The notes under the pieces: model-generated
The model's input: only the letters and a program-made list of their open reading frames with translations
Database searches by the model: none
What the model was told of the DNA's origin: nothing
DNA from: Oscillospiraceae bacterium
GTDB lineage: Bacteria; Bacillota; Clostridia; Oscillospirales; CAG-272
Assembly (NCBI GenBank): GCA_015064345.1
Contig: SVSK01000020.1
Coordinates: 1 to 34,362, forward strand
Length of the DNA: 34,362 nt
Reading direction: 5' to 3'
Part shown: positions 672 to 26,725 of the stretch, piece after piece
Numbering within the stretch: the first letter of the stretch is position 1
Layout of the letters: each line of letters opens with the position of its first letter
Program-made: the position numbers and the translations under genes

Positions 672-1568
672 TCATTTATTCTGAGCCACGGGGCAGCGGC
701 ACATTGAGCCTATCTCTGCGATCCACTTGTCAACTGTTTCAGCGTTCGGCGTTTCAAATATGTTCGACTCTTTGCCAAGCCCTTCGGATTTTGCTTCTCC
801 AAGGGAGTGATATGGCTCAACTTCAACCATTTGTATGTTTGAAAGCCTGTTAACAATGCTCGCGATGGCACGGAAATGCTCGGTATTGTCGTTAACCGTC
901 GGGATTATCGGACAACGCAGGATCACGGGCTTGCCAAGCTCACACAGCAATTCAAGATTCGCGATTATCTGCCTGTTGCTGACCCCCGTGTAGCGGCGGT
1001 GCAATTCATCGTCTCCAAGCTTGAAGTCGTAGAGGAACAAGTCACACATCTCAGCCGCACGGCGTATATTGTTTTCCGAAGTCATACCGCAGGTCTCAAT
1101 TGCCGTGTGAAGTCCACGTTTCTTACAAGCCTCAAGTATTTCAAACAGGAATTCAGGCTGACAAAATGGCTCACCACCTGATATCGTCACACCGCCGCCG
1201 GAGGTTTTGTAAAATATCTCGTCTCGCAGTGCAATGCTTACGATATTTTCCGCGGTCTCTTCCCTGCCGATTATTTCCATTGCTCCACTCGGGCAGATGC
1301 GAGCACATTCACCGCAAAGGGTGCAGGATGAAAAATCGAACTCGTGTCCGCCCTCGTCTACAGCATGACAAGCGTTCGGGCAAACCGCGGCACAGCCTCC
1401 GCACAAAGCGCATTTTGCAACTCGGCAAATAGGCTGTCTCTCCGAGGAATGCGACTCGGGATTGTGACACCATTTGCAGTTCAGCATACAACCCTTGAGG
1501 AACACGGTGGTTCGTATGCCAGGGCCGTCATGTATAGAAAATCTTTGAATGTTGAATATTTTTCCCAT
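672..1568 (-). CDS. Glycyl radical enzyme activase (radical SAM, with ferredoxin-like 2x[4Fe-4S] insert)
   Basis: GCMLNCKWCHNPES (CxxxCxxC), two clusters CALCGGCAAVCPNAC and CTLCGECARICPSGA, GGGVTISGGEP; adjacent to GRE. Confidence 0.93.
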   Translation of the reverse strand: MGKIFNIQRFSIHDGPGIRTTVFLKGCMLNCKWCHNPESHSSERQPICRVAKCALCGGCAAVCPNACHAVDEGGHEFDFSSCTLCGECARICPSGAMEIIGREETAENIVSIALRDEIFYKTSGGGVTISGGEPFCQPEFLFEILEACKKRGLHTAIETCGMTSENNIRRAAEMCDLFLYDFKLGDDELHRRYTGVSNRQIIANLELLCELGKPVILRCPIIPTVNDNTEHFRAIASIVNRLSNIQMVEVEPYHSLGEAKSEGLGKESNIFETPNAETVDKWIAEIGSMCRCPVAQNK

Positions 1569-1628
1569 AAATTTTCTCCTGCGGTGCGAAAATGCCCATT
1601 CTCAAATTTGGAACAGAAAAGCGGTATG

Positions 1629-3818
1629 TTACAGTGAATGCATTGTTCTGCTTATAATATTCTGTCTGAGGCCGATGGGAAGATTTACAAAAATGTCGCT
1701 GTATCCGCCCACGCGAACAACGAGATTTTGGTGGTTTTCCGGATGCTCCATTGCGTCAAGAAGCTCCGCGGAATCAAGAACGTTGATCGACATTTGCTGA
1801 CCGCCGCCTGCAAAATATGCCTTAATAAGAGCCAGCGCGCTTTCCTGTCCCTTGGGGCTAGCGAACAGTTCCTTCTCGAACTTCATCTGAAAAACGAATC
1901 CGCTTTTTGCAAGTCTATGGTCATACGCGAGAGCTGATCTGATCAAAGCGGTAGGACCGTTCATATCGCACCCCGGCACTGCCCCAAGACTGTCGGATAT
2001 TATTATGTCTCCCTTGTGGCGTCCGTTGGCAGATGCGCCTGCCCATACACCGAATGCCGCTGTTCTGTTAAATGTGCTAAGTCCGCCGCCGTACATTCCG
2101 TTTACGGGATCGCGGTAGGTGTGATACTTCATCAGCTCGCTGTAGAAATGACGCTGAATCTCTCCGCCAAGTGTATCAACCTCGTCTATGTCGTTGCCGA
2201 ACTTGAACTTAGATCTCTTGAAATCGCGGTACATTTCCTCATAGCCTTCGTAGTCACGCTCAAGTGCGTCAACTACCTCTGCCATTGTGTATTTATGTGT
2301 ATCAAACACAAAATGCTTGATGTTCGCAAGTGAGTCAATTGCATCTGTAAGTCCTTCGGAGAGTATCTGACCGTGGTTGTAGATGGGCCCGCCGTCCTTG
2401 TAGTTCTTTCCCTTCTCAATACATCCCTGAATAAGCACAGAGCGTATTGGGCTGGGTCCGTATTCCGCAAAGAACTTCTGATATTTGTTCGCCATATCAG
2501 TTGCGTATGCCACTACCCAGTCAAGCTGAGCATAGAATGCAGTCATAAGCTCGTCAAATGACTTAAAATTCCTTGCGTCCCCAGTCTGAAGACCGAATGT
2601 TTCGTCCTTGATAAGGCATTTGCCGTTGTGAAGCGCTCGCTCAAGGCATTTGAGAACGTATATCTCGCCGTCCTCAAGTCCCATGTGAGACTTTCCTTGG
2701 ATATCTATCTGATTACAGCCGTTCATCGCGTACATATGAGAGTCGCAAGGGGGAATACCCAAATCTTCAAGGGCGGGACAAACGACCTCGTCGTTATAAA
2801 GAACAGGCATGCCTGTACCGGCTGACATTACCTTTACGGCATATTTCAGAAAATCCTCCGGTGTGTTTCGGTGGATTCGCATGGTGAGATTGGGGGTGTC
2901 AAACTTATATTTTTCAACAAGGCTGAGTATCGCCCATGACAGAGAGTTTGTTCTGTCGTTCCAGTTCTCGTCGCTACCCGAGATGCAGAGATTCCAGGTT
3001 CTGACTCTCTTGAATTCTCGCCAAAGTCCCTCGAGGATCTCCATATTCTCTTCGCGGTCACCCATTTCGAAGAACTTTCCGCAGTACTGGTCAAAGTTAC
3101 CGGGGGAGTCGTTGCCGTCCATGAAGAACACCATTGCAAAGGACTGACACGCAGTCATAAAGTCAACGGCAGGCTTCTTCGGAACTATCTCCAGCGCCTT
3201 TGCGATACGCTCGTAAATTGCGCGGTTTTCGGCATCCTTCTCCATCATTTCGATGGCGTAAAGGCGATATCTTTCAGAAAGCATATCAACAGTGTCGAGC
3301 GTGAGCATCAGAGCATCATAGAAGTCCGACTTTTCGGGATGTTCCCCTCTGTAGCGGGATATCTTTTCGCGAAGTCCGTCGGTGCCAAGGTCGAGAAGCA
3401 TCCCGAAATCGGGGTTAGCGTGTCCGCCCCAGTCGTGTCCGCCCCAAAGAGTCTTACTGCTCAGCAGCTGAATATCAAGGGGAACGAGGGTTCTGTTGCA
3501 AAGTTCATGATAATCCCTGTCCTCGAAATAATTGATGTAATCCTCAAGTTCATCTGCAAGCTCGGGATACATCTCCATGTACTCTTCCATTTTACCGTGG
3601 TTAACGTATACGCCGCTGTGGTAAGCGAAACAAATACCCTGTTCATAAAACGGCCCATTCATATCAAGGAAGGCAAGGCGGGAGTCCGTCTGAATGGTAA
3701 TGGGAATTCTCTCCATAAACGCGTGCCAACCGGCGGCTATCTTCATTGTTATATCATCGGATTTGCAGTTTCTGTAGGCATATCCAAAAGGAATCAAATT
3801 GGCAATTTTAGGTGTCAT
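1629..3818 (-). CDS. Glycyl radical enzyme (PFL-like family), substrate unknown
   Basis: C-terminal glycyl loop VVRVGGYSDIFVNL; thiyl-Cys loop MYAMNGCNQIDIQGK; followed by its activase. Confidence 0.93.
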   Translation of the reverse strand: MTPKIANLIPFGYAYRNCKSDDITMKIAAGWHAFMERIPITIQTDSRLAFLDMNGPFYEQGICFAYHSGVYVNHGKMEEYMEMYPELADELEDYINYFEDRDYHELCNRTLVPLDIQLLSSKTLWGGHDWGGHANPDFGMLLDLGTDGLREKISRYRGEHPEKSDFYDALMLTLDTVDMLSERYRLYAIEMMEKDAENRAIYERIAKALEIVPKKPAVDFMTACQSFAMVFFMDGNDSPGNFDQYCGKFFEMGDREENMEILEGLWREFKRVRTWNLCISGSDENWNDRTNSLSWAILSLVEKYKFDTPNLTMRIHRNTPEDFLKYAVKVMSAGTGMPVLYNDEVVCPALEDLGIPPCDSHMYAMNGCNQIDIQGKSHMGLEDGEIYVLKCLERALHNGKCLIKDETFGLQTGDARNFKSFDELMTAFYAQLDWVVAYATDMANKYQKFFAEYGPSPIRSVLIQGCIEKGKNYKDGGPIYNHGQILSEGLTDAIDSLANIKHFVFDTHKYTMAEVVDALERDYEGYEEMYRDFKRSKFKFGNDIDEVDTLGGEIQRHFYSELMKYHTYRDPVNGMYGGGLSTFNRTAAFGVWAGASANGRHKGDIIISDSLGAVPGCDMNGPTALIRSALAYDHRLAKSGFVFQMKFEKELFASPKGQESALALIKAYFAGGGQQMSINVLDSAELLDAMEHPENHQNLVVRVGGYSDIFVNLPIGLRQNIISRTMHSL

Positions 3819-3946: not shown

Positions 3947-3978
3947 AAAAGGAATGAACACAGCATTCCTTTTGTTTT
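3947..3978. terminator. Intrinsic terminator at the 3' end of the pilus operon
   Basis: AAAAGGAATG-aacacag-CATTCCTTTT with T-runs on both strands. Confidence 0.8.
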
Positions 3979-4566
3979 TTATTTTCTCATGCAAGTTATC
4001 ACAGTATAGTCAAGGGAGCCCGAGTTTTTTGTAAACAGCAAAAGATCCGCTTCCATCCCCATAAGTGCATCGGAAGACACGTCGTCCGTGGACTGTACCC
4101 ATGTCACCGTGTAAGAATATCTTTTCCCGGTCATATCGGTAACAAATACCGAGTCTCCTATGGACACGATTTTTGAAAAGTCCAGCTGTCCTTTCGCATC
4201 GCTTCCGCCGATAATCAGACTTTTGTCATAAATACTGCCGGTGTATCTGCAGGGAAAGCGGGAGACCTTGCTCTTATCCCACTCGCCGTAAACCGGTAGC
4301 TCAACACCAAACTTCGGCACCCCGAGAATCGCAACAAAATCCTCGCCGTCTATCTCAAGTGAGGGCATATCCATGTCAACTCTGTCGTCAACAGTCCCTG
4401 CGCTCACCTCGGGAATGATGGAGTATATCTCGGATATTATCTCCTTGTTCTTTGCCACAGCGGTTTTCTCGGAGATCATGGGAAGAACAGTCATAAGCAC
4501 CGCGGCGCCGATCAGTATTATACCGACTATAAGAAGCAGCCGCGTGATTTTCGTGCTCTTTTTCAT
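3979..4566 (-). CDS. Sortase-fold protein lacking canonical catalytic residues
   Basis: N-terminal TM; sortase core pattern: I/V-P-x-x-x-VELPVYG, GSIYDKSLIIGGSDAKGQLDF, IGDSVFVTDMTGKRYSYTV, DLLLFTKNSGSLDYTVITC; the last gene of the pilus operon. Confidence 0.75.
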   Translation of the reverse strand: MKKSTKITRLLLIVGIILIGAAVLMTVLPMISEKTAVAKNKEIISEIYSIIPEVSAGTVDDRVDMDMPSLEIDGEDFVAILGVPKFGVELPVYGEWDKSKVSRFPCRYTGSIYDKSLIIGGSDAKGQLDFSKIVSIGDSVFVTDMTGKRYSYTVTWVQSTDDVSSDALMGMEADLLLFTKNSGSLDYTVITCMRK

Positions 4567-5486
4567 GCGTCATTCCTCTTTCGCCATACTGCCAGGACCA
4601 CAAGAAGTCCGCCTGAGATGCACATCACAACAGCATAAAGCCTCAAATTTATCATCTCGCCTGTCTGCGGAGCATCACCGCTGTCGTCGGAGGTTGCTTT
4701 GTTTGTGACAACGAAGGTGTTTCCCTCTCTGACAGCTGTAACTGTGTATCCCTCTGCCACATCTCTCTCAACTGCATACCAAGAGGATCCGTCATCAGGT
4801 GCTGTCCATGAATATGACCATGAATTTTCGGAAGAGAGGATCTTTGTGTCAACGATAACGCCGTCCTTCAGAATATCAACGATGATATTTGCGGGACGCT
4901 TACCGGAGGCTCCCTCGTCTTTCCAAAGCTTTATTACTTTATACTCCTTGTCCTCTACAGATGTGTAGGACTCGGATTTCGGAACCGCAGTAACGTCGTA
5001 ATTATGGTTGCCGTTTTCATCCGGTCGGGGAACAACCGTGAGGAATGACTCAAAAATTGTAACCGTATTGCCTTCACGCACTGTAACAGACAAAGTCAGA
5101 TACATTCCGGGAAGGATGTTCTCGAAAGAAACCTCGCCGTTCTTATCTGTTGTGCCGATTCGTGTGGGCTCGATTCCGTCAGCCGCCGCATATGCCGCAA
5201 GAGTTGACGCAATGGCACGCCATTCGCTCTGGGATGTTACGTCGTATATCTTTACGGGATATTTCGCAAAAGCTCCTGTCAGCGCGTATGTACCGTCGGC
5301 AAACACTTCTGCTATTCTGTATGTTCTTACTTCCACGCCCTCAAAAACTCTGCCGTCACGGGCATATTTCAGCGTAAGAGAGGACGGACGCGCAGGATCA
5401 ACAGGTGCAACGGCAAAAGTCGGCACCACCAGCGCAGAAAAAATGATAAGTACACACAAGGAAAGCGCAACTATTCTTTCTTTCAT
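4563..5486 (-). CDS. CnaB-domain minor/basal pilin with cell-wall sorting signal
   Basis: Signal peptide; CnaB-like domain KEYKVIKLWKDEGASGKRPANIIVDILKDG...; C-terminal APQTG, hydrophobic segment, RKRNDA. Confidence 0.88.
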   Translation of the reverse strand: MKERIVALSLCVLIIFSALVVPTFAVAPVDPARPSSLTLKYARDGRVFEGVEVRTYRIAEVFADGTYALTGAFAKYPVKIYDVTSQSEWRAIASTLAAYAAADGIEPTRIGTTDKNGEVSFENILPGMYLTLSVTVREGNTVTIFESFLTVVPRPDENGNHNYDVTAVPKSESYTSVEDKEYKVIKLWKDEGASGKRPANIIVDILKDGVIVDTKILSSENSWSYSWTAPDDGSSWYAVERDVAEGYTVTAVREGNTFVVTNKATSDDSGDAPQTGEMINLRLYAVVMCISGGLLVVLAVWRKRNDA

Positions 5487-6319
5487 TCGAAGTCCTCCAA
5501 ATCATCTTTTTTGACGGGCATTGCCAGAACGATCACCATGAGTATAAGCAGCATGGGAATCGCCACAGCAGGCATTACGATAAGCACGTCTATCTGATAC
5601 GCATCGGAAATAACGTATATATTCTTCTGTGACACAGTCTCTATACGCTGACCGCGAACTAGAAGTCTGTGTGTGTTGATTCCGTAGGGGGTGCAGGTTA
5701 GAAGTGTGCAGTAATCCCCCTCGGGATCTATCTTTATGTCGTTCACGTTATCAGGTGTGATGGTCTTTATCTGATCCACCTGATAAGTGAGCACTCTGTC
5801 AAGTATTGTAATGGTAAAGGTATCACCCAGCTCCATATGGTCGAGATGAGTGAACAATGTAGCGGAAGGAAGTCCTCTGTGAGCCGAGAGCACGGAATGA
5901 GTACCTGTGCCTCCTGTGGGGATGCTCGTTCCCTCAAGATGTCCAACCGCAACGCTGAGCACGGTGTCACTGGTTGTATGGTACACGGGAAGCTCCAACC
6001 CGATCTTCTCGATTGAAATGTATCCCATGATGCCTGTCCCGCCGAGATTAAGGATATCCATGTATCCATCCACCTGCTTGTGCTGTATCAAGGGAGATTC
6101 AAGCTCACGAAGTGCCGCGTTGTATTCGTCAGCACGGGCAAACTCCGAAGAATAGTCAGCCTCGGGGATGGCCTCAAGCATTTTTTCATAGTCAATGATT
6201 GCCTGTGACTGTGTCCTCGAGTTCCAATAGCTTGTTATCGATGGATATAACAGCACGGAGAGACCTACGAAAAATATGGCCAGCAGTATTATTGTAGACC
6301 ATTTATGTTTCTTCTTCAT
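5483..6319 (-). CDS. srtC: Class C (pilus) sortase
   Basis: LSAHRGLPSATLFTHLD (catalytic His), TLLTCTPYGINTHRLLVRG (catalytic Cys and Arg), N- and C-terminal TM segments. Confidence 0.95.
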   Translation of the reverse strand: MKKKHKWSTIILLAIFFVGLSVLLYPSITSYWNSRTQSQAIIDYEKMLEAIPEADYSSEFARADEYNAALRELESPLIQHKQVDGYMDILNLGGTGIMGYISIEKIGLELPVYHTTSDTVLSVAVGHLEGTSIPTGGTGTHSVLSAHRGLPSATLFTHLDHMELGDTFTITILDRVLTYQVDQIKTITPDNVNDIKIDPEGDYCTLLTCTPYGINTHRLLVRGQRIETVSQKNIYVISDAYQIDVLIVMPAVAIPMLLILMVIVLAMPVKKDDLEDFE

Positions 6320-6428: not shown

Positions 6429-7901
6429 TTATTCAGCGATCTGAGACATTCTCTTCTTAGCAAAGAGTACTACAGCTGCGCAGAGTACCATTACGCTACC
6501 GAATGTGATGAAGAGAGTTGTGCCGAGGCCACCTGTTTCGGGAAGCATGGATCCTGTCTTGTTTACAACGTGTACACCGGAACCTGTGGAGAATACGCCG
6601 TCGTTGAAGATAGCGTCAAGGTTCTTGTCGGAGATAATGAACTGTGTGCGGGATGTAAGCTTGTTGTAACCTGCGGGAGCTACTGTTTCTTCAAGATAGT
6701 AAGTACCGTTGTCTAAACCAACTACTCTTACCTTACCGTCCTTAACAACGATAGCAACACCTGTTTCATCTTCTCTTGCACGGCGGTATGTAACACCGTC
6801 ATCCATGAGAACTACTTTAACTTCTTCTCCTTCTGTAGCAGCGTCATAGATCTTGAACTGTGCGCCGTCGATAAGTCTGTTCTGGGAGTCTGTCTTGATG
6901 ATGTCAATACCGTATGTAAATGTTGTAACTTCGTCAACGTTGGACTCGTGGCCGGAATTATCACCGAATGTGAGCCATGCTGCGTTCTTGTTGCCTTCGC
7001 CTGCGATTACAGCATTACGGTTGAGCATTGCTGTGTAAGTGATAACGATCTTGTCGTTTGTAGAGAGGTGGTCGCAGAATTCCTTTGTGAATACGATCTC
7101 GAATGTGCAGTCGCTGTCCTTGAGTTCTGTGGTCTTTACTGTGTAATATTTTGCATCAACTGTTTCTGTGCCTTTGGCGCCGGGAATAACGTGCTCAATA
7201 CTAGTTACTTCCTTGTATGTAAGACCTGCGTCCATCTTATCGTGGAAGATGTAGTTTTCAGCACCTGCGTGTACGTTGATTGTTACACGGTATGTTACGG
7301 TCTGACCGATGTCGGCTGTGTTTGCAGCGCCGTAGGAGTTTGTGGAGTCTTCAAGAACCTGCTTGTCTACTGTAGGAGCTGCGTTCTTTGCGTTGATGGA
7401 TGCGTTGGGGTTAGTTGTTGTAAGACCGCAGAGAGCACCCATTGTGGAGTCAACGAGGTAGTAACCGAGGGTAAGGTCGGAGAACACGCCTGTTGTACCG
7501 GTAACAACGAATTCACCGGCGTTTGCTGAAGACTTAACGGGCTGAATTCCATTTTCCTTTGCGTAGGAAAGAGCGACCTTAGCGAATGTAGCAACTATGG
7601 AGTTGTCTTCGCCTGCGATCCATGTTACGTAGCCTGCATCATCAATTGTGATGTAATTCTTTGCTTCAGTTGTCTCGAAGAATGCTGTCCAAGCGGAGTT
7701 TACCTTGTAGGAGTAAGCGCCGGATGTCTTGTCGTAGGACTCGAGATCGAGGAGCTGGTAGATGGAGTAAACGTTTTCAGTGCTTACGCCGTTGATTGTG
7801 ATGGAGCCGAGTTCTGTTTCTTTTACTTCAGCTGCGAATGAGGGAAGCGCGAGAGTCATGAGCAGCATCGCTGCGAGTACGAGAGTAATAACTCTTTTCA
7901 T
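6429..7901 (-). CDS. Major pilin (SpaA-type, isopeptide-forming fimbrial subunit)
   Basis: Signal peptide; pilin-like Lys context NAAPTVDKQV; E-box YYLEETVAPAGYN; C-terminal LPETG-TM-KKR. Confidence 0.93.
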   Translation of the reverse strand: MKRVITLVLAAMLLMTLALPSFAAEVKETELGSITINGVSTENVYSIYQLLDLESYDKTSGAYSYKVNSAWTAFFETTEAKNYITIDDAGYVTWIAGEDNSIVATFAKVALSYAKENGIQPVKSSANAGEFVVTGTTGVFSDLTLGYYLVDSTMGALCGLTTTNPNASINAKNAAPTVDKQVLEDSTNSYGAANTADIGQTVTYRVTINVHAGAENYIFHDKMDAGLTYKEVTSIEHVIPGAKGTETVDAKYYTVKTTELKDSDCTFEIVFTKEFCDHLSTNDKIVITYTAMLNRNAVIAGEGNKNAAWLTFGDNSGHESNVDEVTTFTYGIDIIKTDSQNRLIDGAQFKIYDAATEGEEVKVVLMDDGVTYRRAREDETGVAIVVKDGKVRVVGLDNGTYYLEETVAPAGYNKLTSRTQFIISDKNLDAIFNDGVFSTGSGVHVVNKTGSMLPETGGLGTTLFITFGSVMVLCAAVVLFAKKRMSQIAE

Positions 7902-7989: not shown

Positions 7990-10900
7990 TCAGCATTTCC
8001 TCCTCAGAGAACGTCGTTTAATAATATATAGCGATACAAGTGAACCGAGCATCAATGCCAGTCCACTGAGTACCCATAACTGTGCGCCGCAACCTCCCGT
8101 AGAGGGCAGCTCGTATCCGTGACCGAACTTGTATGTGTTCGTCACAGATGTTTCGTAGGTGGGAATGCCGTTTCCGACGGACAATATCTCGCCGTATTTC
8201 GGTTCCCAATCATTTGAATCCCATGCCTCGACAACGGTGTATGAGATAACATGACCGTCATCTCCCTGGTACGGGAGTCCCATAAAGGTTTCAGTCCAGC
8301 TGTTTTTCAGGCTGAGTGTAACCGAACGTCCAGTGTCTTTTCCGTCAGCGTAGAGCTTTATTGTGACCTGCGCTGTCTCATACTTGACATTCTGGGCAAG
8401 ACCCGTATCCCAATACTTTGTAACCTTCAGTGAGGTTTCCGCCTCAAGAGGTGTGTTTGTAATGGTGTATGCAATACCCTCAACCTCAATTTCGGTAGAT
8501 GTCATTTTTACTACCATGGGAGTAAAGAGCAATGCATTGTTGTCGTTCGTATGCGATGCAAGATAGCCGTTGTTGTTCAGCGAAGTTGCGTATCTTGATG
8601 TATTTGTATTACCCGACTTATAAGCAAGTCTGTAACCGTTGTTTGTGTTGGTATATGTCAGGTTCTGGTAGCTGTTTGTTCTGCTGTAGGCGTAGAAGTA
8701 TCTTCTGCTGCTGCTGGTGTTGAAGGTAAGTATCTGTCCTGCACCGTTTGTAAGCTTAACTGTGCTGTTTCTTGTGTTGACCTCCGCGGTCCAGGTAGCC
8801 AGAGAGCCCGCTGTTCCGTATTCGGCCTTTGCTTCTTCCTCAGAGATCCATTTCAGCTTGTCGCTTGAGGAGCTTACTGTTGACAGGAATCCGTAACTCG
8901 TCTTAAGCAGATACTCGCCGCCATTCTCGAACTGGTAGGATTCCCACGCCTCGTCGTTGATTATGATCTTTTCTACCCGTTCAACCATGGACTGGTATCC
9001 CGTGGTGTAGGATTCCTCAACGCCGTAGTCAACCTCGGTAACTCCGTCAGCGCCGTGCTTCGGAAGGTTGGTCCAGGTGTACGTCCACTCATTTTCCTCA
9101 CCAAGTACGATCTCGCGTATTCTTCGTACAGTGCCATCTTCGTCGGTGACTGTCAAGTACACGCTGACATAGTCGGTGGAGTGGTCTTCGGTGTCATCCC
9201 AGACCTTGTATACCTGAATGGTGGTGGTTTCATCTACCCATTCCTGGGCATTTGTAATCGTGATGTACGCGTCCTGGTCATCCGTGTCAATATGGTAACC
9301 GTGGACGGTATATCCGGGTGAGATGCCCTCTCCCTCTTCTTCCTCAATGATCTCAAGGTCGAATGTTGCGTTACCCTTGATGTCGAATACCAGCTTGATT
9401 ATACCAACCGCGCATTCGTATCCCGGGTTATCGGGAGCTTTTGTTTCCTTAATGTAGTAGGTCTTGCCGGGGCTTATACCCCAGATATTAGCAATACCGT
9501 TTACAACTGTGAATGTGCTTTGTGAGGGTGCTTCGTTATCGTAGTCCTCTTCAGATCCCCAAAGCATAGCAGGTTCTGTACACTCGAGGTCATTGTAGAA
9601 GGTGAATTCTGCACCGTCCAGCAACTCCTGAGTAAGTACGTCTTCCTTCTGAAGTGTCAGACTGTATCTCGGAGCGATATTGAAGTACATCGCGCAGTTG
9701 GACTGAGAGCTTCCTCGTTCAAGATAGTAAACCGTAAGAACGTGGTCACCGGGCTCAAGGTCGGAAAGCGTGTCAGTCTGTCTGCCGTTTACTGTTACTA
9801 TACCGGAGGAGAAGTTAATAGTACCGCTGACAACCTGGTGGATACCACCGATGTCAAGGCGAACAACGCCGTCAACAAGTACCCATACGTCGTCGTCTCC
9901 CGAGAAGGTGTAGACCATTTCGTTGCCGTAAATGTCCAGGTTGGCATATTCGCCGTTTTCGTTTCTCTCTCCGGGAGTATCAGGCAGGTAGAACTTCATC
10001 TCCATGCTCATGCCGAAGGCCATGTTGGCACCGACAATACTGGAGTTGTTGTAGCTTACGTCATATTCGTAGTGGTTGACTCCGTCGTACTCACCAAGGT
10101 CACCCTCGTATGTGTACGTATCCGTACCCTTGCCATTTGTGTTCGCGTAGGGCGAGTTCATGGGCAAGAAGTCGGAGTATCCGTATTCGCCGCTCTGTCC
10201 TGTTGAGTCGGAGGTACGGGCAAGATAGTCATATACGTAGAATCTCTGCTCGCTACGGTTATAAGACGCCGCGTGGAGCTTTGAGTCAAAGTAGTAGTAT
10301 CCGTAATATTCGCTGGCGGGGTTTTCCATAAGCTGGAACAAGTGGTCGCCCCTGCCGAGATATGTCTTACCGAGAATTCCCTCTCCGGTTTCGGGATCAA
10401 AGCTGTTATAGTGACCGAAGAGTATCTCGCCAAGCTCAGGTGTATAGATTCCGTCCGATACAGTAGTTGCCTGGTGATAGTCGTTGTTATAGCTTCTGTT
10501 GTTTGCGAGAGAAAGCTTGCCGCCGGAGTCATTGTCCTTGAAGATGAAGTCAATGGTCTCGGCATTTTTATAAGGCACCGTGCCGCTTGAAACATGTGAC
10601 CATGTCTCCGAGTGGGAGGTTGTGCTGACATTCACGCTTGCCTTCGACGACAGAATGTTAAAGAGGTAGTTGTAGTCGAAGACGTGAATATCAATAATGT
10701 GGTTGGTGCTTATGGTGTCGGAGGTTGATGCGTTGAATCGGCCTATATCATATGTTATAGGCTCCCAGTCGGTGTACAGTACCATGTTGCCCAGTACCGT
10801 TACCTCCTCACCGGGACGGTAGTAAACGCTGTTTGTTACGTCGTACCAGCCGCGAACCCTGTAGCCAAACTGGTTCGGGGACTGCCACTCGGTAGGAAGC

Positions 10901-12444
10901 TGTATAGTGTCACCATGCTTTACCGCATAACGCGTATTGGGAGAACCGGACAAGCTGCGAAGTCCGCCGTTTGTACCGTCAAGCCATACGGAATAGGTGT
11001 CGCCTACCGCTGTAATTTCAACATCAGGCTCTTCGTCACCGCCTTCAAGCTTCACTTCCGAGTCAGCTTCAAGCTCAAGTGAAGGCTTCTTCTCAGGCAC
11101 GTCCGTTTCAGGCACATCCGTTTCAGGTGCGTCTGTTTCGGGTGCGTCCGTTTCGGGTGCATCTGTCTCAGGTACATCCGTTTCAGGTGCGTCTGTTTCG
11201 GGTACGTCTGTTTCGGGTACGTCTGTTTCGGGTACGTCTGTCTCGGGTGCGTCTGTTTCAGGTACGTCCGTTTCGGGTACATCCGTTTCAGGTACATCCG
11301 TTTCAGGTGCGTCCGTTTCGGGTGCGTCCGTTTCGGGTACATCCGTTTCGGGTGCGTCTGTCTCGGGCACGTCTGTCTCGGGCACGTCTGTCTCAGGCAC
11401 GTCTGTTTCGGGTGCGTCTGTCTCGGGCACGTCTGTCTCAGGTACGTCTGTCTCGGGTACATCCGTTTCAGGTGCGTCTGTCTCGGGTACGTCCGTTTCG
11501 GGTACGTCTGTTTCAGGTGCGTCCGTTTCAGGTGCGTCTGTCTCGGGTACGTCCGTTTCTTCACCCTCGATTATTATCAAGCTGTTTTTCGGAGCGGAAA
11601 GTCCGAATCCCACAACCGTCTCGTCATCGAAAGCGTATTCATTCTCCGCCACAATGCCGTCGCAGTCTCCTTCGATGACAATGATGCTCTCAAGTTCGAC
11701 TTCAATAACGATCGCTGCAGACTCAGGCACTCCGTTTTGGTTCTTATCAAGGAATACCACGTCACCGGGAATGGGAGTGTAGTTGTCCTTGCCTTTGTAA
11801 AGCTCTTCCCTGTTCCATTCTACGATCATTGCCTCCGCACCGGAGTTGATCGGAACATCTTCAAGCCCTGCATATCTGAGGCAGAAGGATACGAACATCA
11901 CAGACCAGTTTCCGTAAGTGTTGCCGTACCATTCGCCGTATCTTGTGTATCCGTGGCGCACGCCCTCCAAGTCAACGGCGAAATTCCGCTCACTCTCAGC
12001 GTAACCAAGCTGGGATCGTGCTATCTCCACAACTCGCTCTGCAGTAGTTGCGTCTTCGTGGATATCGGGCAACGTAGCCTCCCACATATCGGGAGTTTCT
12101 ACATCTGCTTTGATATCGGAGTAGCACATCTCATCGTGAATATGTTCTTCCATTCCGCAAATATATGAGATGGAATAACACTTATTCGTGTGCTCATGCG
12201 GATTTTCTTCATCCGTGTCGGATTCTGTGCAGATAAGTACTCGCTCAATACATTCGTTTTCGTGAACGTGTTCGTGTAGTCCGCAGAATGCTTCTCCTGC
12301 CATGGTGATTCCGATAAGCTTCAGCCACCAGAACACCGTTATAATTACGATCAGTGAGATCAGAGGAAGCATAGCGCTGAGGCGATGTTTCCATGTTTTT
12401 GAATATTTTATTGTATCGAGATCACTTCTCAAAGCTTCATTCAC
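7990..12444 (-). CDS. Giant pilus tip/adhesin protein: Cys/His motif region, CHAP-like domain, PETD repeats, fibro-slime-type domain, CnaB domains, LPSTG anchor
   Basis: N-terminal TM/signal; YTRYGEWYGNTYGNWSVMFVSFCLRYAG; PET-D-[VA] repeats; YTFSGDDDVWVLVDGVVRLDIGGIH; CnaB-like TTIQVYKVWDD and TSLKVTKYWD; LPSTG-TM-KRRSLRRKC. Confidence 0.92.
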   Translation of the reverse strand: MNEALRSDLDTIKYSKTWKHRLSAMLPLISLIVIITVFWWLKLIGITMAGEAFCGLHEHVHENECIERVLICTESDTDEENPHEHTNKCYSISYICGMEEHIHDEMCYSDIKADVETPDMWEATLPDIHEDATTAERVVEIARSQLGYAESERNFAVDLEGVRHGYTRYGEWYGNTYGNWSVMFVSFCLRYAGLEDVPINSGAEAMIVEWNREELYKGKDNYTPIPGDVVFLDKNQNGVPESAAIVIEVELESIIVIEGDCDGIVAENEYAFDDETVVGFGLSAPKNSLIIIEGEETDVPETDAPETDAPETDVPETDVPETDAPETDVPETDVPETDVPETDAPETDVPETDVPETDVPETDAPETDVPETDAPETDAPETDVPETDVPETDVPETDAPETDVPETDVPETDVPETDAPETDVPETDAPETDAPETDAPETDVPETDVPEKKPSLELEADSEVKLEGGDEEPDVEITAVGDTYSVWLDGTNGGLRSLSGSPNTRYAVKHGDTIQLPTEWQSPNQFGYRVRGWYDVTNSVYYRPGEEVTVLGNMVLYTDWEPITYDIGRFNASTSDTISTNHIIDIHVFDYNYLFNILSSKASVNVSTTSHSETWSHVSSGTVPYKNAETIDFIFKDNDSGGKLSLANNRSYNNDYHQATTVSDGIYTPELGEILFGHYNSFDPETGEGILGKTYLGRGDHLFQLMENPASEYYGYYYFDSKLHAASYNRSEQRFYVYDYLARTSDSTGQSGEYGYSDFLPMNSPYANTNGKGTDTYTYEGDLGEYDGVNHYEYDVSYNNSSIVGANMAFGMSMEMKFYLPDTPGERNENGEYANLDIYGNEMVYTFSGDDDVWVLVDGVVRLDIGGIHQVVSGTINFSSGIVTVNGRQTDTLSDLEPGDHVLTVYYLERGSSQSNCAMYFNIAPRYSLTLQKEDVLTQELLDGAEFTFYNDLECTEPAMLWGSEEDYDNEAPSQSTFTVVNGIANIWGISPGKTYYIKETKAPDNPGYECAVGIIKLVFDIKGNATFDLEIIEEEEGEGISPGYTVHGYHIDTDDQDAYITITNAQEWVDETTTIQVYKVWDDTEDHSTDYVSVYLTVTDEDGTVRRIREIVLGEENEWTYTWTNLPKHGADGVTEVDYGVEESYTTGYQSMVERVEKIIINDEAWESYQFENGGEYLLKTSYGFLSTVSSSSDKLKWISEEEAKAEYGTAGSLATWTAEVNTRNSTVKLTNGAGQILTFNTSSSRRYFYAYSRTNSYQNLTYTNTNNGYRLAYKSGNTNTSRYATSLNNNGYLASHTNDNNALLFTPMVVKMTSTEIEVEGIAYTITNTPLEAETSLKVTKYWDTGLAQNVKYETAQVTIKLYADGKDTGRSVTLSLKNSWTETFMGLPYQGDDGHVISYTVVEAWDSNDWEPKYGEILSVGNGIPTYETSVTNTYKFGHGYELPSTGGCGAQLWVLSGLALMLGSLVSLYIIKRRSLRRKC
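11090..11560 (-). repeat. 15-bp/5-aa tandem repeat (PETD[V/A]), 31 V/A units
   Basis: Uninterrupted units such as gtctgtttcgggtac read directly on the plus strand. Confidence 0.95.
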
Positions 12445-12489: not shown

Positions 12490-13071
12490 TTAATGGAGAA
12501 TAGCGAAACCGTTCAGCGGCCATACGCGGAAGAACAGCTTACCAACGATCTGTTCCGTTGGGATACAGCCGATAACTGTGCTTCTGCTGTCAATGGACGT
12601 TGATCTATGGTCGCCCATCAGGAAATAGGTGTTTTCCGGAACTGTGAACGGGAATTCTATATCGCATTCACCAAGTCCGCGGTCGCTTATATACGGTTCT
12701 TCAAGGAGATATCCGTTTATGTAAACGTATCCGTCGTTGTCAATAACGATCTCGTCTCCCGGAAGTCCGACAACTCGTTTAATCAGTATCTTATTGGAGT
12801 ATGAGAATCCGCAAAGATCCCCTCGCTCCAGCTTAGATGTTTTAACAAGCACTACTATATCCCCGTTATTCAGGGTAGGCTCCATACTCGTGCCGGCAAT
12901 CTGCAAAACGGGAAGAACGAGCGTCGTAATAAGAACCGCTATTGCTGCTACGACAACAAGAGTGTACAGCGTGTTCTTTATGATACGTCTGAAGCGTATC
13001 TTGTTACGCTCTCTTTTCAGCTCCTCTTCGATCAGATCTGCCGAGAGTATTACGTTTTCGTTTTCGTTCAT
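12490..13071 (-). CDS. lepB: Signal peptidase I, encoded in the pilus operon
   Basis: GTSMEPTLNNGD (Ser), KRVVGLPGDEI (Lys), GDHRSTSIDSR; single N-terminal TM. Confidence 0.93.
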   Translation of the reverse strand: MNENENVILSADLIEEELKRERNKIRFRRIIKNTLYTLVVVAAIAVLITTLVLPVLQIAGTSMEPTLNNGDIVVLVKTSKLERGDLCGFSYSNKILIKRVVGLPGDEIVIDNDGYVYINGYLLEEPYISDRGLGECDIEFPFTVPENTYFLMGDHRSTSIDSRSTVIGCIPTEQIVGKLFFRVWPLNGFAILH

Positions 13072-13086
13072 AATCTTATCTGTACT

Positions 13087-13587
13087 TTACTTCTGATTGT
13101 TTTTTTGAAGTTTTTTCTTCTCTTCCGACAGGTATCTGTAAAGGCCGCGTATTTCGTCAAGCTTTGCGTTAGCCTCCTCATCGATCTTCTCGGCACGCTT
13201 CTGTGCGTCTCTGATTATCTGCTCGGCAACCTTTTGACTCTGTTCCTCTTTTTCTGCACAGCGTCTGTCAACCTCAGCAAACATTGCTTTGGCTCTTTTC
13301 ATGCACTCTTCTTGAAAGCGCTTTTTCAGGATATCCTGATTGTCGTAAAGCTTTTTGACATTGTAGAGATACTGCTTTGCCGCATCTTCGGCAGCTTCAA
13401 AAACGCCGTTCAGCTTTAATGCCGCTTCAGCGATAGATCCTGCCTCTGTTTTGATAAGAAGTCTGTTTTTCAGTTTTTTGTTCGCGTCGTCAAGCTGTGC
13501 CTGCAGCTCCTCCGATCTCTCTGTAAGTCGAAGAAGTAACTCAAGCAGCTGCTTTCTGTTTAGTTTCTTTAACTCTCTGTCAGCCAT
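13087..13587 (-). CDS. Coiled-coil protein, first gene of the pilus operon, unknown function
   Basis: Intact ORF 16 bp from signal peptidase; heptad-rich Lys/Glu sequence (LTERSEELQAQLDDANKKLKN...). Confidence 0.75.
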   Translation of the reverse strand: MADRELKKLNRKQLLELLLRLTERSEELQAQLDDANKKLKNRLLIKTEAGSIAEAALKLNGVFEAAEDAAKQYLYNVKKLYDNQDILKKRFQEECMKRAKAMFAEVDRRCAEKEEQSQKVAEQIIRDAQKRAEKIDEEANAKLDEIRGLYRYLSEEKKKLQKNNQK

Positions 13588-14470: not shown

Positions 14471-16540
14471 ATGAACAAGACAGACGCAAAGTACGAAGCG
14501 TTGTTTACCCCTTGGAAGATCGGCAACGTTGAGATCAAAAACCGAATCGTAATGTGTCCAATGGGCGGAACGTCACTTTTCGGTTGGTTTGAGCTCACAG
14601 GCTGTGGCTTTGATAAGGAGGCAGCAAAGCTTTTCCTTGAGAGAGCAAACAACAACGTAGGACTTATCATCCCCGGCATCGCTCCCCTGCGTGATACGTT
14701 CTGGGGCAAGTGGCTCTGGCAGAATCCGAAAATGTTCCGAGAGCTTAAGACCTTTATGGACGAGATCCACAAGACAGGCGCAAAGCTATTCATTCAGCTC
14801 ACCGCAGGTATGGGCCGCTCTTGGGCAATTACCGAGCTTGTTGCTCCTCTGCACAAGAACAAGTTTACACGTGCGTTGGTTAAGCCCATCATTGATACCT
14901 CCCACGAGCTTGCATCTCCCTCCCCTCAGCCGTCTCGCTGGGCACACGATATTGAATGTCCCGAGATGACAAAGGAGCAGATCCACGAGATCATCGAGGC
15001 GTTTGCCAAGACTGCAAAGCTTTGCAAGGATGCAGGCGTTGATGGTGTTGAGGTTCATGCTGTACACGAGGGATACCTTCTCGACCAGTTTGCAATTGAG
15101 TTCTTCAATAAGCGCACCGATGAGTATGGCGGAAGCTTTGAGAACCGCTACCGTTTCGCCGCAGAGGTTGTAAAGGCTATTAAGGAAGCCTGCGGAGATG
15201 ACTATCCCGTATCGCTTCGTTATTCAGTAGAATCCAAGATGAAGGGCTTCTGCGAGGGAGCAATGCCAGGTGAGGAATATATCGAAGTCGGCAGAAATAT
15301 GGAGGAATCCGAGCGCGCGGCAAAGTATCTCGAGGACGCAGGTTACGATATGCTCAATGCGGACAACGGCACATACGACTCCTGGTACTGGGCGCATCCG
15401 CCGATGTATATGCCCGAAAACTGCAACCTTGACGACGTGGCACACATCAAAAAATACGTTGATATTCCCGTTGTTTGCGCGGGCAGAATGGATGCAGAGG
15501 TTGGTGCGAAAGCTGTCGCTGAAGGCAAAATCGACGCTGTTGGCGTTGCCCGTCAATTCCTCGTTGACCCTGAATGGATCACAAAGCTGATTGAAGACAG
15601 GCTCGAGGACATCAAGCCTTGTATCTGTTGTCACGCGGGTTGCTTCAACTTCTCTTCATCCAAGGGTCACGCAAATACCCAGGATCTGACAGATACAATG
15701 GGACTTGCCCGTTGCGCACTCAATCCCGAAACAATGCAGTCAAAGAAGTATCACATTGAGCCTGCAAAGAAAAAGAAGAAAATCGCAGTCATCGGCGGCG
15801 GTATCGGCGGTATGGAAGCTGCTATCGTTTGTGCAAAGCGTGGACACGAAGTAACGCTTTACGAAAAGAGCGACAAGCTTGGCGGTGTATTTATTGCGGC
15901 AGCTTCTCCTTCATTCAAGGAAAAGGACAGAGCGCTTATCGCATGGTATATCCGTGAGATCGCAAAGTATCCCATTACCGTAAAGATGAATACCGAAATC
16001 AAAGACGTAAAATCCCTTGATGCAGACGAGATCATCGTAGCAACGGGTGCTGTTGCAAAGAAGATTCCCGTGAAGGGAGCGGAAACAGCGGTTGAGGCAG
16101 TTGACTATCTGCTCGGAAACAAAGAGGTAGGCGAGAACGTAGTTGTTATCGGCGGAGGTCTTACGGGTTGTGAAATAGCATACGACCTTTATCTGAACGG
16201 AAAGAAGCCCATAATCGTTGAAATGCAGGACGACCTTATCACTACTCCCGGTATCTGCCTTGCAAACACGAGCTATCTCCGTGATTTCTTCAAAACAAAC
16301 AAAGTTCCCGTACATCTTGAAACCTCTCTATCCGAGATAGGTGAAGGATACGTAACTCTTAAGGGAAAAGACGGAAAGACATTTACCGTAAGCACGGATT
16401 CCGTTATCCTCTCTGTTGGCTATAACCCCGCACCGCTTTCAACCAAGGGCAGACACATCCACGTTATTGGGGACGCTGACAAGGTTGGCAATCTTCGTAC
16501 CGTTATCTGGGGCGCGTGGGACGTTGCAATGAAACTGTGA
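14471..16540 (+). CDS. NADH:flavin oxidoreductase / enoate reductase (Old Yellow Enzyme + [4Fe-4S] + FAD/NAD domain)
   Basis: GVDGVEVHAVHEGYLLDQF, NKRTDEYGGSFENRYRF, CICCHAGC...ARCALNPE cluster motif, dinucleotide motifs AVIGGGIGGMEAA and VVIGGGLTGCEIA; SD ggagga. Confidence 0.93.
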   Translation: MNKTDAKYEALFTPWKIGNVEIKNRIVMCPMGGTSLFGWFELTGCGFDKEAAKLFLERANNNVGLIIPGIAPLRDTFWGKWLWQNPKMFRELKTFMDEIHKTGAKLFIQLTAGMGRSWAITELVAPLHKNKFTRALVKPIIDTSHELASPSPQPSRWAHDIECPEMTKEQIHEIIEAFAKTAKLCKDAGVDGVEVHAVHEGYLLDQFAIEFFNKRTDEYGGSFENRYRFAAEVVKAIKEACGDDYPVSLRYSVESKMKGFCEGAMPGEEYIEVGRNMEESERAAKYLEDAGYDMLNADNGTYDSWYWAHPPMYMPENCNLDDVAHIKKYVDIPVVCAGRMDAEVGAKAVAEGKIDAVGVARQFLVDPEWITKLIEDRLEDIKPCICCHAGCFNFSSSKGHANTQDLTDTMGLARCALNPETMQSKKYHIEPAKKKKKIAVIGGGIGGMEAAIVCAKRGHEVTLYEKSDKLGGVFIAAASPSFKEKDRALIAWYIREIAKYPITVKMNTEIKDVKSLDADEIIVATGAVAKKIPVKGAETAVEAVDYLLGNKEVGENVVVIGGGLTGCEIAYDLYLNGKKPIIVEMQDDLITTPGICLANTSYLRDFFKTNKVPVHLETSLSEIGEGYVTLKGKDGKTFTVSTDSVILSVGYNPAPLSTKGRHIHVIGDADKVGNLRTVIWGAWDVAMKL

Positions 16541-16562
16541 TAATTTGATAGGAGAAAGAAAA

Positions 16563-17837
16563 ATGATACTTACAAAAGAACAGCAGGCCATACTTGACGG
16601 TGAAAAGGGTGAAACGCTTGCCAAGGTAATGAAAACGCTCGTTATGTACGGCGATGCCTTTGAAGCAGAAAAACTCGTTCCCATCACCTCAAAATACAAC
16701 CACCTTGTAACCTCCTTCGGCCTCAAGGTTATGTCTCCCGTGTACGATCTGATGCAGCAGCTTCTGGACGCAGGTGTTTGCTCCGATCAGAAGTTCTCGG
16801 TGGACCCCCGTCCTCTTGATAAGAATGTACCCGCTAACTTCTTACAAAATTTCGTGTTTAACAAGTTCATGTATACAAAGCAAAGCTTCTACGAAAATCA
16901 GCTTGATAAGCTTGGACTTATGGACAAAAACGCGTTCACCTGTACCTGCTATATGGACGAGGTAGGCAACAAGCCGAAGAAGGGCGAAATCCTTTCATGG
17001 GCAGAGTCAAGCGCGGTGGTTTATGCAAACTCCGTACTTGGTGCGAGATGCAATAGAAACTCAGGTATTATTGATATTATGGGTTCTATCGTAGGCTACG
17101 TTCCCTACTTCGGACTTCTCACCGACGAGGGCAGACGTGCAACTTGGGTAGTTAAGGTAGAAACAACAAAGAAGCCCGAAGCACAGCTCCTCGGTTCTGC
17201 CATCGGTATGAAGGTTATGGAGGACGTTCCTTACGTCGTTGGCCTTGATAAGTGGATCGGAGACGAGCTTAATGATTCTGCCTGCGCATATCTCAAGGAT
17301 TTCGGCGCTGCTACTGCTTCAAACGGCGCGGTAGGTCTATATCACATAGCAAACCTCACACCTGAAGCAGTTGAGCTTGGTGAGAGCCTTATCGTCGAGG
17401 GTGCAAAGGAATACGTCATCGACGACGCTGAGCTTGAAAGAGTAAAGAACAATTATCCCGTTATCTGGAAGAATCCTGATGCGGCACCTAAGCTTTGCTT
17501 CGTCGGTTGTCCTCATCTTTCTCTCGAGCAGCTCAAGGATTGGACACTCAGTATTGAGGCTGAACTGAAGAAGAACGGCAAAAAGAAAGTTGTTATTGAT
17601 ACGGTATTTACCGCCGCTCCCGCAGTTCTTGAAGCATTTAACAAGACAGAATACGCCGAGAGACTTAAGGCAACAGGCGTTATTACCTCGTACATCTGTC
17701 CTCTGATGTATATGAACAATCCTCTTTGCAAGAAGATGCCCGTTATTACATCCTCTAACAAGCTCCGCACTTACACAAGCTCCAGATATTACACAGACGC
17801 AGAAATTCTCAATACTATTACGGGAGGTAAAAACTAA
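16563..17837 (+). CDS. Aconitase X catalytic (large) subunit (DUF521 family)
   Basis: Start MILTKEQQAILDGEKGETLAKVMKTLVMYGDAFEAEKLVPITS; NSVLGARCNRNSGIIDIMGSIVGYVP; pairs with the swivel subunit downstream. Confidence 0.9.
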   Translation: MILTKEQQAILDGEKGETLAKVMKTLVMYGDAFEAEKLVPITSKYNHLVTSFGLKVMSPVYDLMQQLLDAGVCSDQKFSVDPRPLDKNVPANFLQNFVFNKFMYTKQSFYENQLDKLGLMDKNAFTCTCYMDEVGNKPKKGEILSWAESSAVVYANSVLGARCNRNSGIIDIMGSIVGYVPYFGLLTDEGRRATWVVKVETTKKPEAQLLGSAIGMKVMEDVPYVVGLDKWIGDELNDSACAYLKDFGAATASNGAVGLYHIANLTPEAVELGESLIVEGAKEYVIDDAELERVKNNYPVIWKNPDAAPKLCFVGCPHLSLEQLKDWTLSIEAELKKNGKKKVVIDTVFTAAPAVLEAFNKTEYAERLKATGVITSYICPLMYMNNPLCKKMPVITSSNKLRTYTSSRYYTDAEILNTITGGKN

Positions 17838-23911: not shown

Positions 23912-26725
23912 TTAGTCAGCGTTTGCTGTGGACCATTCCTTTTCCAGTGCCGCCCAGTCGCGTACAGGGAGAATTGCTTCCCAGATCTCATATCCGAAGT
24001 CGTCCCAGATGTAGATATGGGAGTTGGTTGCTTCCTGAACGTCTGCGTAATACCACTTGTCAGCAGTATTGTCAGCCCAGGTGATCATGCCGGGGAGAAG
24101 CTGATTCTTATGAGGATTTCTACCGAGTGTACGGTTGATGATCTTCATTGCTTCCGCTCTTGTGACATACTTGTCAGGGCGGAATGTGCCGTCTTCGTAT
24201 CCGTCGATAAAGCCGAATTCTTCAGCAGCGGCAACAAATTCTGTAGCCCAGTGATTCGATGCATCCGCAAAGTGAGTGCTCTGACCTGCGCTTGTACCGA
24301 AGAAGGAAACTGCAATCTTTACAAGCTCTGCTCTTGTGATATATGCGTTAGGTCTGAACGTGCCGTCTGCATAACCGTTGAGAACACCTGCATTTGCAAG
24401 AGTGGAAACAGCATTGTTGAACCAGTCAGAAGAGGAAACGTCGGAGAAGCTGTTGGTCTGTGACCAGTATTTTGCTCTCGCCTCATCTGTGAGCATTCTG
24501 AAGAAGATCGTTGCAACCTCGGCTCTTGTGATGTTAGCCTCAGGTCTTACAAGTCCGTCGGGATATCCGATAACGTAGCCGAAGTGATCTTCTCTTACAA
24601 GAACGTTTTCGTAGTAGGAGTTCTTGAACTTGATGCTGCTCAGTCTGCCTGCCTTAACTACTACTCTGTTGCCTTCCACGTCACTTGTTGTGAACAGCGT
24701 GTAGCCCTCAACCTCTGCATTCTCTTCTACGATCTGGTAAATACCGGGATCAAGGCTGATGGAGATCTTCTCACCTGCCTTAATGCGTACAGTCTTGATG
24801 TACTCAAGTCTTGTGCCGTATTCGCGGTAGATGGAGAATGTGAAGTATCTTACGTTAAATCCTGCGGGAGCTTCAAGTTCCTTTTCGATGGATACAGTTC
24901 CGTCGATAGGCATGTTTACGTTACGCTCGCCGTAGATGTTTACGTCTGCCTCAGGCATTACGAACTTGCCGTCAGTTGTGGGAACTACCTTACCTGTAGA
25001 TGCATTGATCGGCTCGGACCAACCCTTGAATGTAATGGGTGCGGGATATTCGGGCTTTTCAATGATTGTGTGAATGTCGCCTGAATATACGATGAAGCTT
25101 TCGTAGAGGTTGTTGTCTACGTAGTAGTTTACTCTGTAGGGGAAGTTGGTCTGAGTGAAAGATCCGCTGATAACAACGTCATGCGCAGGCATTGTGAAGC
25201 TGCCGCTGCTGATAGTTGCATCAGTTGAAGTCCAGCCGTTAAACTCGAAGTATTTGGACTCGGGTTCATCCGCTACGTTAACGGTTACACCGTGATATAC
25301 GTACTCATCCGCAGGAAGAGCAGGTGCATCCTCGGGAACTGTGCCTGAGTATCTGTACGTAACCTTGTAGCTCTTGCGAGTGCTTGTGAGATGGATCTCA
25401 ACATCCTCTGCGGGCATCTTGAACTGATCGTCAGTGATCGTTACATCCTCGGAAGTCCATGTGCCGTAGTCAAGAGCGGCTGTATCGGCAGGCTCGTCGA
25501 TGAGTGTTACGTCTGTACCTGCAAATCTGTAAACAGTCTTGTAAAGTACACCGTCAACGTAATATGTAACCTTGTACATCTGCAGTGTAGGAGAAGGAGC
25601 TGTTGCAACCGCATTCATGCTTGAATCGTAGAGAGTTGCGTCACCGTAGTTTGTGGCGATCTTACCGTCTTCACCTACTGCATCAGCCGCAGTGTCAAGA
25701 GCGTCATAGTCGGGAGTGATATTGAAGGTAAGGATAAGCTTCTTACCGTAGAATCCGTTACGGGGTGTTTCGGAAACGTAGTTTTCATCGAAATCAAATC
25801 CGTTTACGGAAATTGTTCTGCCATTCTGAAGTGTAACGGTTACTGAAGACGATACGTCAACAGGATCTGCCCAGCCTGTAGCAGTCTTCTCGGAGGTGAG
25901 CACGGAAATGCCGTTTGTTCCCTCGGGAAGTGTGAAGTAAGGGCTGATAGTGTCAACAAGAGTTGCGCTCTCACCAACCTCGATAGTGGGCTTTTCGATA
26001 GACTGAGCAATGCCCTCGAAGATGGAGCCAAGGCTCATGTTAGTATCGGGAGTCTGATAGAATCCGCGTCCCATTGCCTCTGCAACCTCGGAATTAGCTA
26101 CACCGTCGTCAAGAACGTTGTTATTTCCTGCGGTAGCATTCGGGAAGTTGCTGGAGAGGTAATGCATGAACTTGTTGATATCTTCGTTGCTTGTGGTAAG
26201 TGCCGCAGAAGAATCTGCATTCTCATCTACGCAAATTGTAAATATAGTAACACCGATATCCTTCAGCGCCTTTGCCTGATTGATACAGGTCGCGGCAACT
26301 GACTCGTCATAACCGTTGCTGTGGTTGGGCTCACCGTCGGTAAATACAACCACAACGTTCTTTCTGTCAGCTGCAGAGTTGCTTGCTTCATTTATCAGCT
26401 GTGTTGCAAGAGCCAAACCGTAGTCAACAGATGTTGCACCGCCGGGAGTGATGGAATCCATATGGGCGATCAGCGTAGCAGCACCGGTCTCGTTAACTGT
26501 GGTAAGAGGAGCAACTACCTGAGAATAGTTGTATCCGTTGCTTTGCTTATTGTTACCTACAACAGCTTTGGAAACCTCCTGTGTGGAGTCGCTGCCGCTA
26601 TAGTAAGAGTCGTCCGCAAACTTAATAAGCGCGATGGAATGCTTGTCGGCATCATTTGCAACGGACTTGTTCGCTTCAAGTGTTTCTGCGATAAACAAGT
26701 CAACGCCCTCAGCCAGCATTTCCAT
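23912..26725 (-). CDS. VWA domain / InlB-type beta-repeat / CnaB-like / three SLH-domain surface protein, 5'-truncated
   Basis: VVVVFTDGEPNHSNGYDES and GGATSVDYGLALA (VWA); repeated FxGWTSxDATI-type units; SLH motifs YVIGYPDGLVRPEANITRAEVATIFFRML, LNGYADGTFRPNAYITRAELVKI, IDGYEDGTFRPDKYVTRAEAMKIINR. Confidence 0.85.
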   Translation of the reverse strand: MEMLAEGVDLFIAETLEANKSVANDADKHSIALIKFADDSYYSGSDSTQEVSKAVVGNNKQSNGYNYSQVVAPLTTVNETGAATLIAHMDSITPGGATSVDYGLALATQLINEASNSAADRKNVVVVFTDGEPNHSNGYDESVAATCINQAKALKDIGVTIFTICVDENADSSAALTTSNEDINKFMHYLSSNFPNATAGNNNVLDDGVANSEVAEAMGRGFYQTPDTNMSLGSIFEGIAQSIEKPTIEVGESATLVDTISPYFTLPEGTNGISVLTSEKTATGWADPVDVSSSVTVTLQNGRTISVNGFDFDENYVSETPRNGFYGKKLILTFNITPDYDALDTAADAVGEDGKIATNYGDATLYDSSMNAVATAPSPTLQMYKVTYYVDGVLYKTVYRFAGTDVTLIDEPADTAALDYGTWTSEDVTITDDQFKMPAEDVEIHLTSTRKSYKVTYRYSGTVPEDAPALPADEYVYHGVTVNVADEPESKYFEFNGWTSTDATISSGSFTMPAHDVVISGSFTQTNFPYRVNYYVDNNLYESFIVYSGDIHTIIEKPEYPAPITFKGWSEPINASTGKVVPTTDGKFVMPEADVNIYGERNVNMPIDGTVSIEKELEAPAGFNVRYFTFSIYREYGTRLEYIKTVRIKAGEKISISLDPGIYQIVEENAEVEGYTLFTTSDVEGNRVVVKAGRLSSIKFKNSYYENVLVREDHFGYVIGYPDGLVRPEANITRAEVATIFFRMLTDEARAKYWSQTNSFSDVSSSDWFNNAVSTLANAGVLNGYADGTFRPNAYITRAELVKIAVSFFGTSAGQSTHFADASNHWATEFVAAAEEFGFIDGYEDGTFRPDKYVTRAEAMKIINRTLGRNPHKNQLLPGMITWADNTADKWYYADVQEATNSHIYIWDDFGYEIWEAILPVRDWAALEKEWSTANAD

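Follow-up and report, generated by a model that had tools for sequence, protein, structure and literature searches.

Sortases are textbook enzymes defined by a catalytic triad of His, Cys and Arg. The window analysed here, a stretch of 34,362 nucleotides forming a single contig (G000:C38) of the draft genome of an Oscillospiraceae bacterium, carries on its minus strand a pilus operon whose last gene codes for a sortase-like protein in which, according to an earlier note, all three of these residues have been replaced. The question raised by the locus is whether such a protein, here called the pseudo-sortase, is a defect of one genome or a conserved component of the pilus machinery and, if the latter, with which partner it works.

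The pilus operon and the catalytic positions of its last gene

The operon contains a complete set of pilus genes (Table 1). The coiled-coil-like protein encoded by the first gene has no Pfam match, but was matched in 27 fetched neighbourhoods and leads pilus operons with dead as well as with active last-gene sortases. The pilin polymerase SrtC has retained its catalytic residues (SAHRG, LLTCT, THR). The open reading frame of the pseudo-sortase is intact, as previously described, with a hydrophobic N-terminal segment, and its start overlaps the stop of the basal pilin gene by 4 bases (ATGA, 4563-4566), in agreement with the translational coupling suggested earlier. A terminator-like hairpin follows immediately, and the gene thus closes the operon.

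Table 1. Location of the operon genes, the basal sorting motif and the codons at the catalytic positions in the window.
Feature	Position	Strand	Remarks
Charged coiled-coil-like protein, first gene	13087..13587	(-)	Conserved first gene of such operons
Type I signal peptidase	12490..13071	(-)	PF10502, 128 bits
Tip/adhesin protein, 1484 aa, LPSTG	7990..12444	(-)	Cna_B and fibro-slime domains, long ETDVPETDAP repeat
Major pilin, LPETG	6429..7901	(-)	
SrtC, class C pilin polymerase	5483..6319	(-)	260 bits, cut-off 160
Basal pilin (Cna_B)	4563..5486	(-)	Inferred partner of the pseudo-sortase
Basal pilin sorting motif APQTG, then Glu	4656..4673	(-)	
Pseudo-sortase, 195 aa, last gene	3979..4566	(-)	Membrane segment at the N-terminus; sortase-fold domain lacking His/Cys/Arg
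Ser122 codon	4201..4203	(-)	Catalytic His position
Lys180 codon	4027..4029	(-)	Catalytic Cys position
Tyr187 codon	4006..4008	(-)	Catalytic Arg position
Cys192 codon (C-terminal ITC)	3991..3993	(-)	Common to active relatives
Terminator-like hairpin	3947..3973	(-)	Directly 3' of the pseudo-sortase gene

Several other features of the window were recorded. The repeat in the tip protein spans about 11050-11560 and adjoins a weak CHAP-like domain (18 bits, below the cut-off). Downstream of the operon, genes for a glycyl-radical-enzyme-like protein and its activating enzyme (672-3818, minus strand) are accompanied by a perfect match to a sigma-70-type promoter at 3888-3861. An aconitase X gene is located directly after an NADH:flavin oxidoreductase-like gene on the plus strand (14471-17837), and a 1402-aa protein with zero Pfam matches (26887-31095, minus strand) adjoins an S-layer-homology/VWA protein (23912-26725) and a beta-helix protein.

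The score of the pseudo-sortase against the Pfam Sortase model was 18.9 bits, below the cut-off of 26.6, so that a search with the single sequence was insufficient and relatives in other genomes were needed. Profile-profile comparison placed the protein with active relatives (E = 2.4e-50), supporting a sortase fold. An AF2 model of the single window sequence was poor (pLDDT 48.5) and residue-level geometry was for this reason not drawn from it; a PDB search still ranked sortases first, with the top 30 matches at E < 0.001. The protein could not be assigned to class C (NF033745 in NCBIfam, 17 bits versus a cut-off of 160) and did not reach the cut-off for class D (NF058671 and NF033746, 17.8 bits versus 140). 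Nor did it resemble the S26 signal peptidases, since its only matches were to sortases; the S26 gene of the operon is a separate one.

The active relatives are 28-32% identical to the window protein and carry the motifs GHNYxxHFG, LFTC and xxRxTVRC, in place of which GGSDxxGQxDF, LFTK and xDYTVxxC are found in the window protein and those closely related to it. Because the profile-profile alignment has no gap across the three catalytic positions, and because the His, Cys and Arg of the active relatives align with those of the solved class C sortase 24rr, the positions could be assigned to Ser122, Lys180 and Tyr187, respectively. None of the Cys, His and Arg residues characteristic of C60 transpeptidases is thus present. 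The replacements of His by Ser and of Cys by Lys were as first reported, and so was the loss of Arg, but the residue at the Arg position is Tyr187 and not Asp, Asp186 being the residue before it.

We also asked whether other residues restore a triad, for which the Cys of the C-terminal ITC had been named as a candidate. As a substitute nucleophile, Cys192 was ruled out, being present in 55 of 58 active relatives besides their real catalytic Cys. No conserved His was found in the dead family, and no alternative triad was recovered.

A family of pseudo-sortases descended from active sortases

Searches for relatives at the genus, family, order and class levels yielded two groups split by score, in genomes whose gene content suggests Clostridia-like gut bacteria. 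The first consists of 39 aligned relatives, which are spread over many genera and several families. All of them are intact and lack the triad, whereas the triad is complete in all 58 active relatives with which they were compared; no intermediates between full triad and full loss were seen in either set. In the dead members, the Cys position is occupied by Lys (19), Arg (19) or Glu (1) and the Arg position by Tyr (38) or Trp (1), while the His position is variable (Ser, Thr, Ala, Val, Tyr, Pro, Glu or Cys) and never His (0/39). The replacement pattern seen in the window recurs in other pilus loci, with Lys or Arg at the Cys position in 38 of the 39 members. Besides the dead centre, the sequences show a surrounding pocket that is remodelled and conserved (K/R180, Y187 and G-Q-x-D-F), and the protein may be needed for pilus assembly in the way that SipA, discussed below, is. 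A permutation test of entropy on hand-picked pocket columns was set aside as circular.

When the triad columns were excluded and SrtC served as the outgroup, the dead sortases formed one clade of the sortase tree (SH-aLRT 99) nested inside the active ones. On this topology, the family is shown to have descended once from active sortases encoded by the last gene of such operons, with loss of the triad and retention of the fold. Among 299 genomes sampled across the phylum, those outside the class gave active-like scores only. A search of plasmid records yielded no match, and phage records yielded two weak matches, about 30% identical to the query across two thirds of its length. Two of the loci (L037 at G342:C5 and L064 at G486:C42) have identical contig coordinates and protein features in genomes of different families, probably due to binning contamination of one of them.

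The dN/dS ratios were 0.11-0.26 for the closest pairs of dead sortases, for which dS was near saturation, and 0.05-0.17 for pairs of active ones. Relaxed selection and frameshifts among the homologs had been named as grounds for abandoning the idea of a retained protein, and we observed no widespread decay. The one decayed operon (L154, G158:C15) has a broken fusion of the basal pilin N-terminus with the dead sortase, near a resolvase-like gene, and the rest of the operon is missing. Since the 39 dead relatives are intact, the window protein is, on the comparative evidence, a member of a conserved pseudo-sortase family and not the product of chance or a defect of a single genome. The complete loss of the triad, the long-term retention and the purifying selection seen among the homologs all support the earlier proposal that the protein has been kept in a non-catalytic capacity.

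The basal pilin as the probable partner

In the fetched neighbourhoods, dead and active sortases occupy the same place after the basal pilin within the same gene order. The tails of the basal pilins differ, however. Beside active sortases they read [L/I]PQTG-x-L-x-W-P, that is, [L/I]PQTG followed by a short stretch and W-P, whereas beside dead sortases they read [A/P]PxTG (in some cases with S, T, V or I in the first position) followed by Asp or Glu. The Leu of the motif has been lost in nearly all dead operons. When the tails were read by eye, the acidic residue was present in 39 of 39 dead operons versus 1 of 53 active ones; an automatic count, in which a few tails were misread, gave 36/40 versus 1/55 (Fisher's test, 1.6e-20). 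The motif of the major pilin is LPxTGG (in a few cases LPETGA) in both operon types alike. With the basal pilin as the starting point instead, a search of 297 genomes of the family identified 16 basal pilins of the dead type, each of which adjoins a dead sortase (16/16).

To separate the possible partners, we counted changes of the dead/active label on single-gene trees. A single change sufficed for the basal pilin tree (SH-aLRT 100), and the same was true of the sortase tree. The SrtC tree required four changes and the major pilin tree six, and in both of these three changes were forced by well-supported branches. As judged from these trees, the two operon types have traded SrtC and the shaft with each other, but not the basal pilin and the last sortase. 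The dead clade has a single origin, so that the correlation with the motif amounts to one event on the tree, strengthened solely by the fact that SrtC and the major pilin have been reshuffled. One label change on the basal pilin tree compared with several on the SrtC tree ties the dead sortase to the basal pilin rather than to SrtC, and this contrast is the main evidence that the target or partner of the pseudo-sortase is most likely the basal pilin and not SrtC. Pilin docking, base assembly and regulation of SrtC had all been suggested initially; the data favour the basal pilin as the partner, with one label change, over SrtC, with at least three to four.

A few operons depart from the general pattern. 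The basal motif is degraded in three dead operons (L136, L138 and L141). In the genome G1017 (L151, G1017:C57), the dead sortase carries Glu in place of the catalytic Cys, has no adjoining basal pilin and is followed by a uracil-DNA-glycosylase-like gene; this sortase (L094) is the sole member of the family with Glu at that position. The locus shows that, at the level of gene content, a dead sortase gene can persist without a basal pilin neighbour. In another genome (G183), a coiled-coil gene is directly followed by the basal pilin and the dead sortase (L127, G183:C41), and the tip, major pilin and SrtC genes are at the end of another contig (L315, G183:C99). The basal pilin and dead sortase pair may here form a small operon of its own, or the assembly may be wrong.

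Anchoring of the pilus base

The explanation that we favour, in which we place about even confidence, is that the pseudo-sortase helps to dock or present the pilus base by binding the basal pilin, while a class B sortase performs the wall anchoring. The protein would be descended from the sortase that anchors pili of this type, still membrane-bound but catalytically dead. It would bind the basal pilin, probably at the sorting signal or the membrane end, and hold it during attachment of the shaft by SrtC, the wall-anchoring cut being left to the housekeeping class B sortase. The Lys or Arg that replaces the Cys may face the new Asp or Glu after the basal pilin motif, an idea with which the Glu-bearing sortase of the operon without a basal pilin fits, although it is one case. 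More tentatively, and with some doubt, this could be the first pseudo-sortase family in which a single loss of catalysis turned an anchoring sortase into a motif-reading adaptor, with Lys/Arg facing the new Asp/Glu, and anchoring was rewired from a private sortase to the class B enzyme.

A class B sortase was identified in 37 of 39 genomes with dead sortases versus 31 of 41 with active ones, and its presence is a weak argument since it is also common in the latter. In the window genome it is a separate active gene located elsewhere (L002, G000:C52). Of the 21 dead-type genomes, all drafts, that were searched for all sortases, at least 13 yielded no complete sortase besides SrtC and class B. 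The class B enzyme SrtB of Clostridioides difficile, the sole sortase of the strain studied, cleaves (S/P)PXTG but not LPETG, and the substrates listed for it include SPKTGDSTN (PMC4155245); these resemble the tails of the dead-type basal pilins. A genome-wide search for anchor motifs in the dead-type genomes also identified surface proteins unrelated to pili with similar ends, such as PPKTGDTSN (G031), SPSTGDTT (G341) and NPQTGDNS (G125). Almost no [S/P/A]PxTG substrates were found next to the class B sortase genes. From the near-universal presence of class B sortases in the dead-type genomes, the motif of C. difficile SrtB and the surface proteins with like ends, we infer that class B took over wall anchoring once the operon's own sortase had died.

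Alternatively, the basal pilin may remain uncut, with the pseudo-sortase capping a degenerate sorting signal and thereby fixing the pilus to the membrane. The loss of the motif Leu in nearly all dead operons, the membrane segment and the conserved pocket retained by the dead protein speak for this alternative, and the three broken motifs mentioned above fit a membrane-held base better than anchoring by class B. We nevertheless regard it as unlikely, given that most dead-type motifs are well preserved as PxTG-D/E and that their resemblance to the C. difficile SrtB substrates and to surface proteins of the same genomes points to a cutting enzyme. Pseudoenzymes often regulate an active relative, and the common operon and fold make SrtC an obvious candidate for a polymerase tuned by a dead partner. 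This appears rather improbable, since SrtC types have swapped between dead and active operons (the four changes counted above), which the basal pilin has not, and since the active-type operons use the same kind of SrtC.

The strong conservation of K/R180 and Y187 might further suggest an enzyme with another chemistry, based on Lys/Arg180, Tyr187 or Cys192, or a protein that becomes the pilus anchor itself with Lys180 as the covalent acceptor. Both variants seem very improbable: the presence of Arg instead of Lys in half of the family speaks against an amine that all members share as nucleophile or acceptor, Cys192 also occurs in active sortases, where another Cys is the catalytic one, and no His is conserved. 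Least credible is a decaying remnant without function, for which the broken fusion in G158 could be cited. That operon has also lost SrtC and the other pilins, and the 39 intact copies in many genera and several families, the dN/dS values well below 1 and the strict pairing with the basal pilin contradict, on present comparisons, such a reading for the family as a whole.

Anchoring of the pilus base is less understood than polymerisation of the shaft, and a conserved pseudo-sortase inherited together with the base pilin represents a natural experiment on base anchoring in Gram-positive pili, for which matched pairs of active and dead operons offer a test. It would also be wrong to annotate genes of the dead family as sortase enzymes. 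Among the papers searched, none used the term pseudosortase or described a family of dead sortases conserved in pilus operons.

Among the systems with which the pseudo-sortase can be compared, the active last-gene sortases (L010, L012, L055, L073 and others) resemble it in size and fold, likewise begin with a membrane segment and lie at the same position of the operon, but have His, Cys and Arg in 58 of 58 cases and adjoin basal pilins of the [L/I]PQTG-x-L-x-W-P type; NCBIfam assigns them to the sortase family only (TIGR01076). SrtC is likewise a sortase-fold protein of the pilus operon, encoded by an adjoining gene, from which the pseudo-sortase differs by the absence of the triad and of a C-terminal membrane segment such as that in the SrtC of the window. 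The C. difficile SrtB-type class B sortase is a separate active gene, and its product is the enzyme that we suggest anchors the [A/P]PxTG basal pilin in these genomes. The closest parallel in kind may be SipA of Streptococcus pyogenes, a dead signal-peptidase-like protein that has kept its peptide cleft, lost its catalytic residues and is essential for pilus polymerisation (PMC4049620). Both are membrane-bound dead relatives of peptide-cutting enzymes encoded in pilus operons, but SipA has the signal peptidase fold and is not homologous to the pseudo-sortase, in whose operon there is a signal peptidase gene of its own. We use SipA as a working comparison, with what may be the same kind of role performed by another fold and without kinship.
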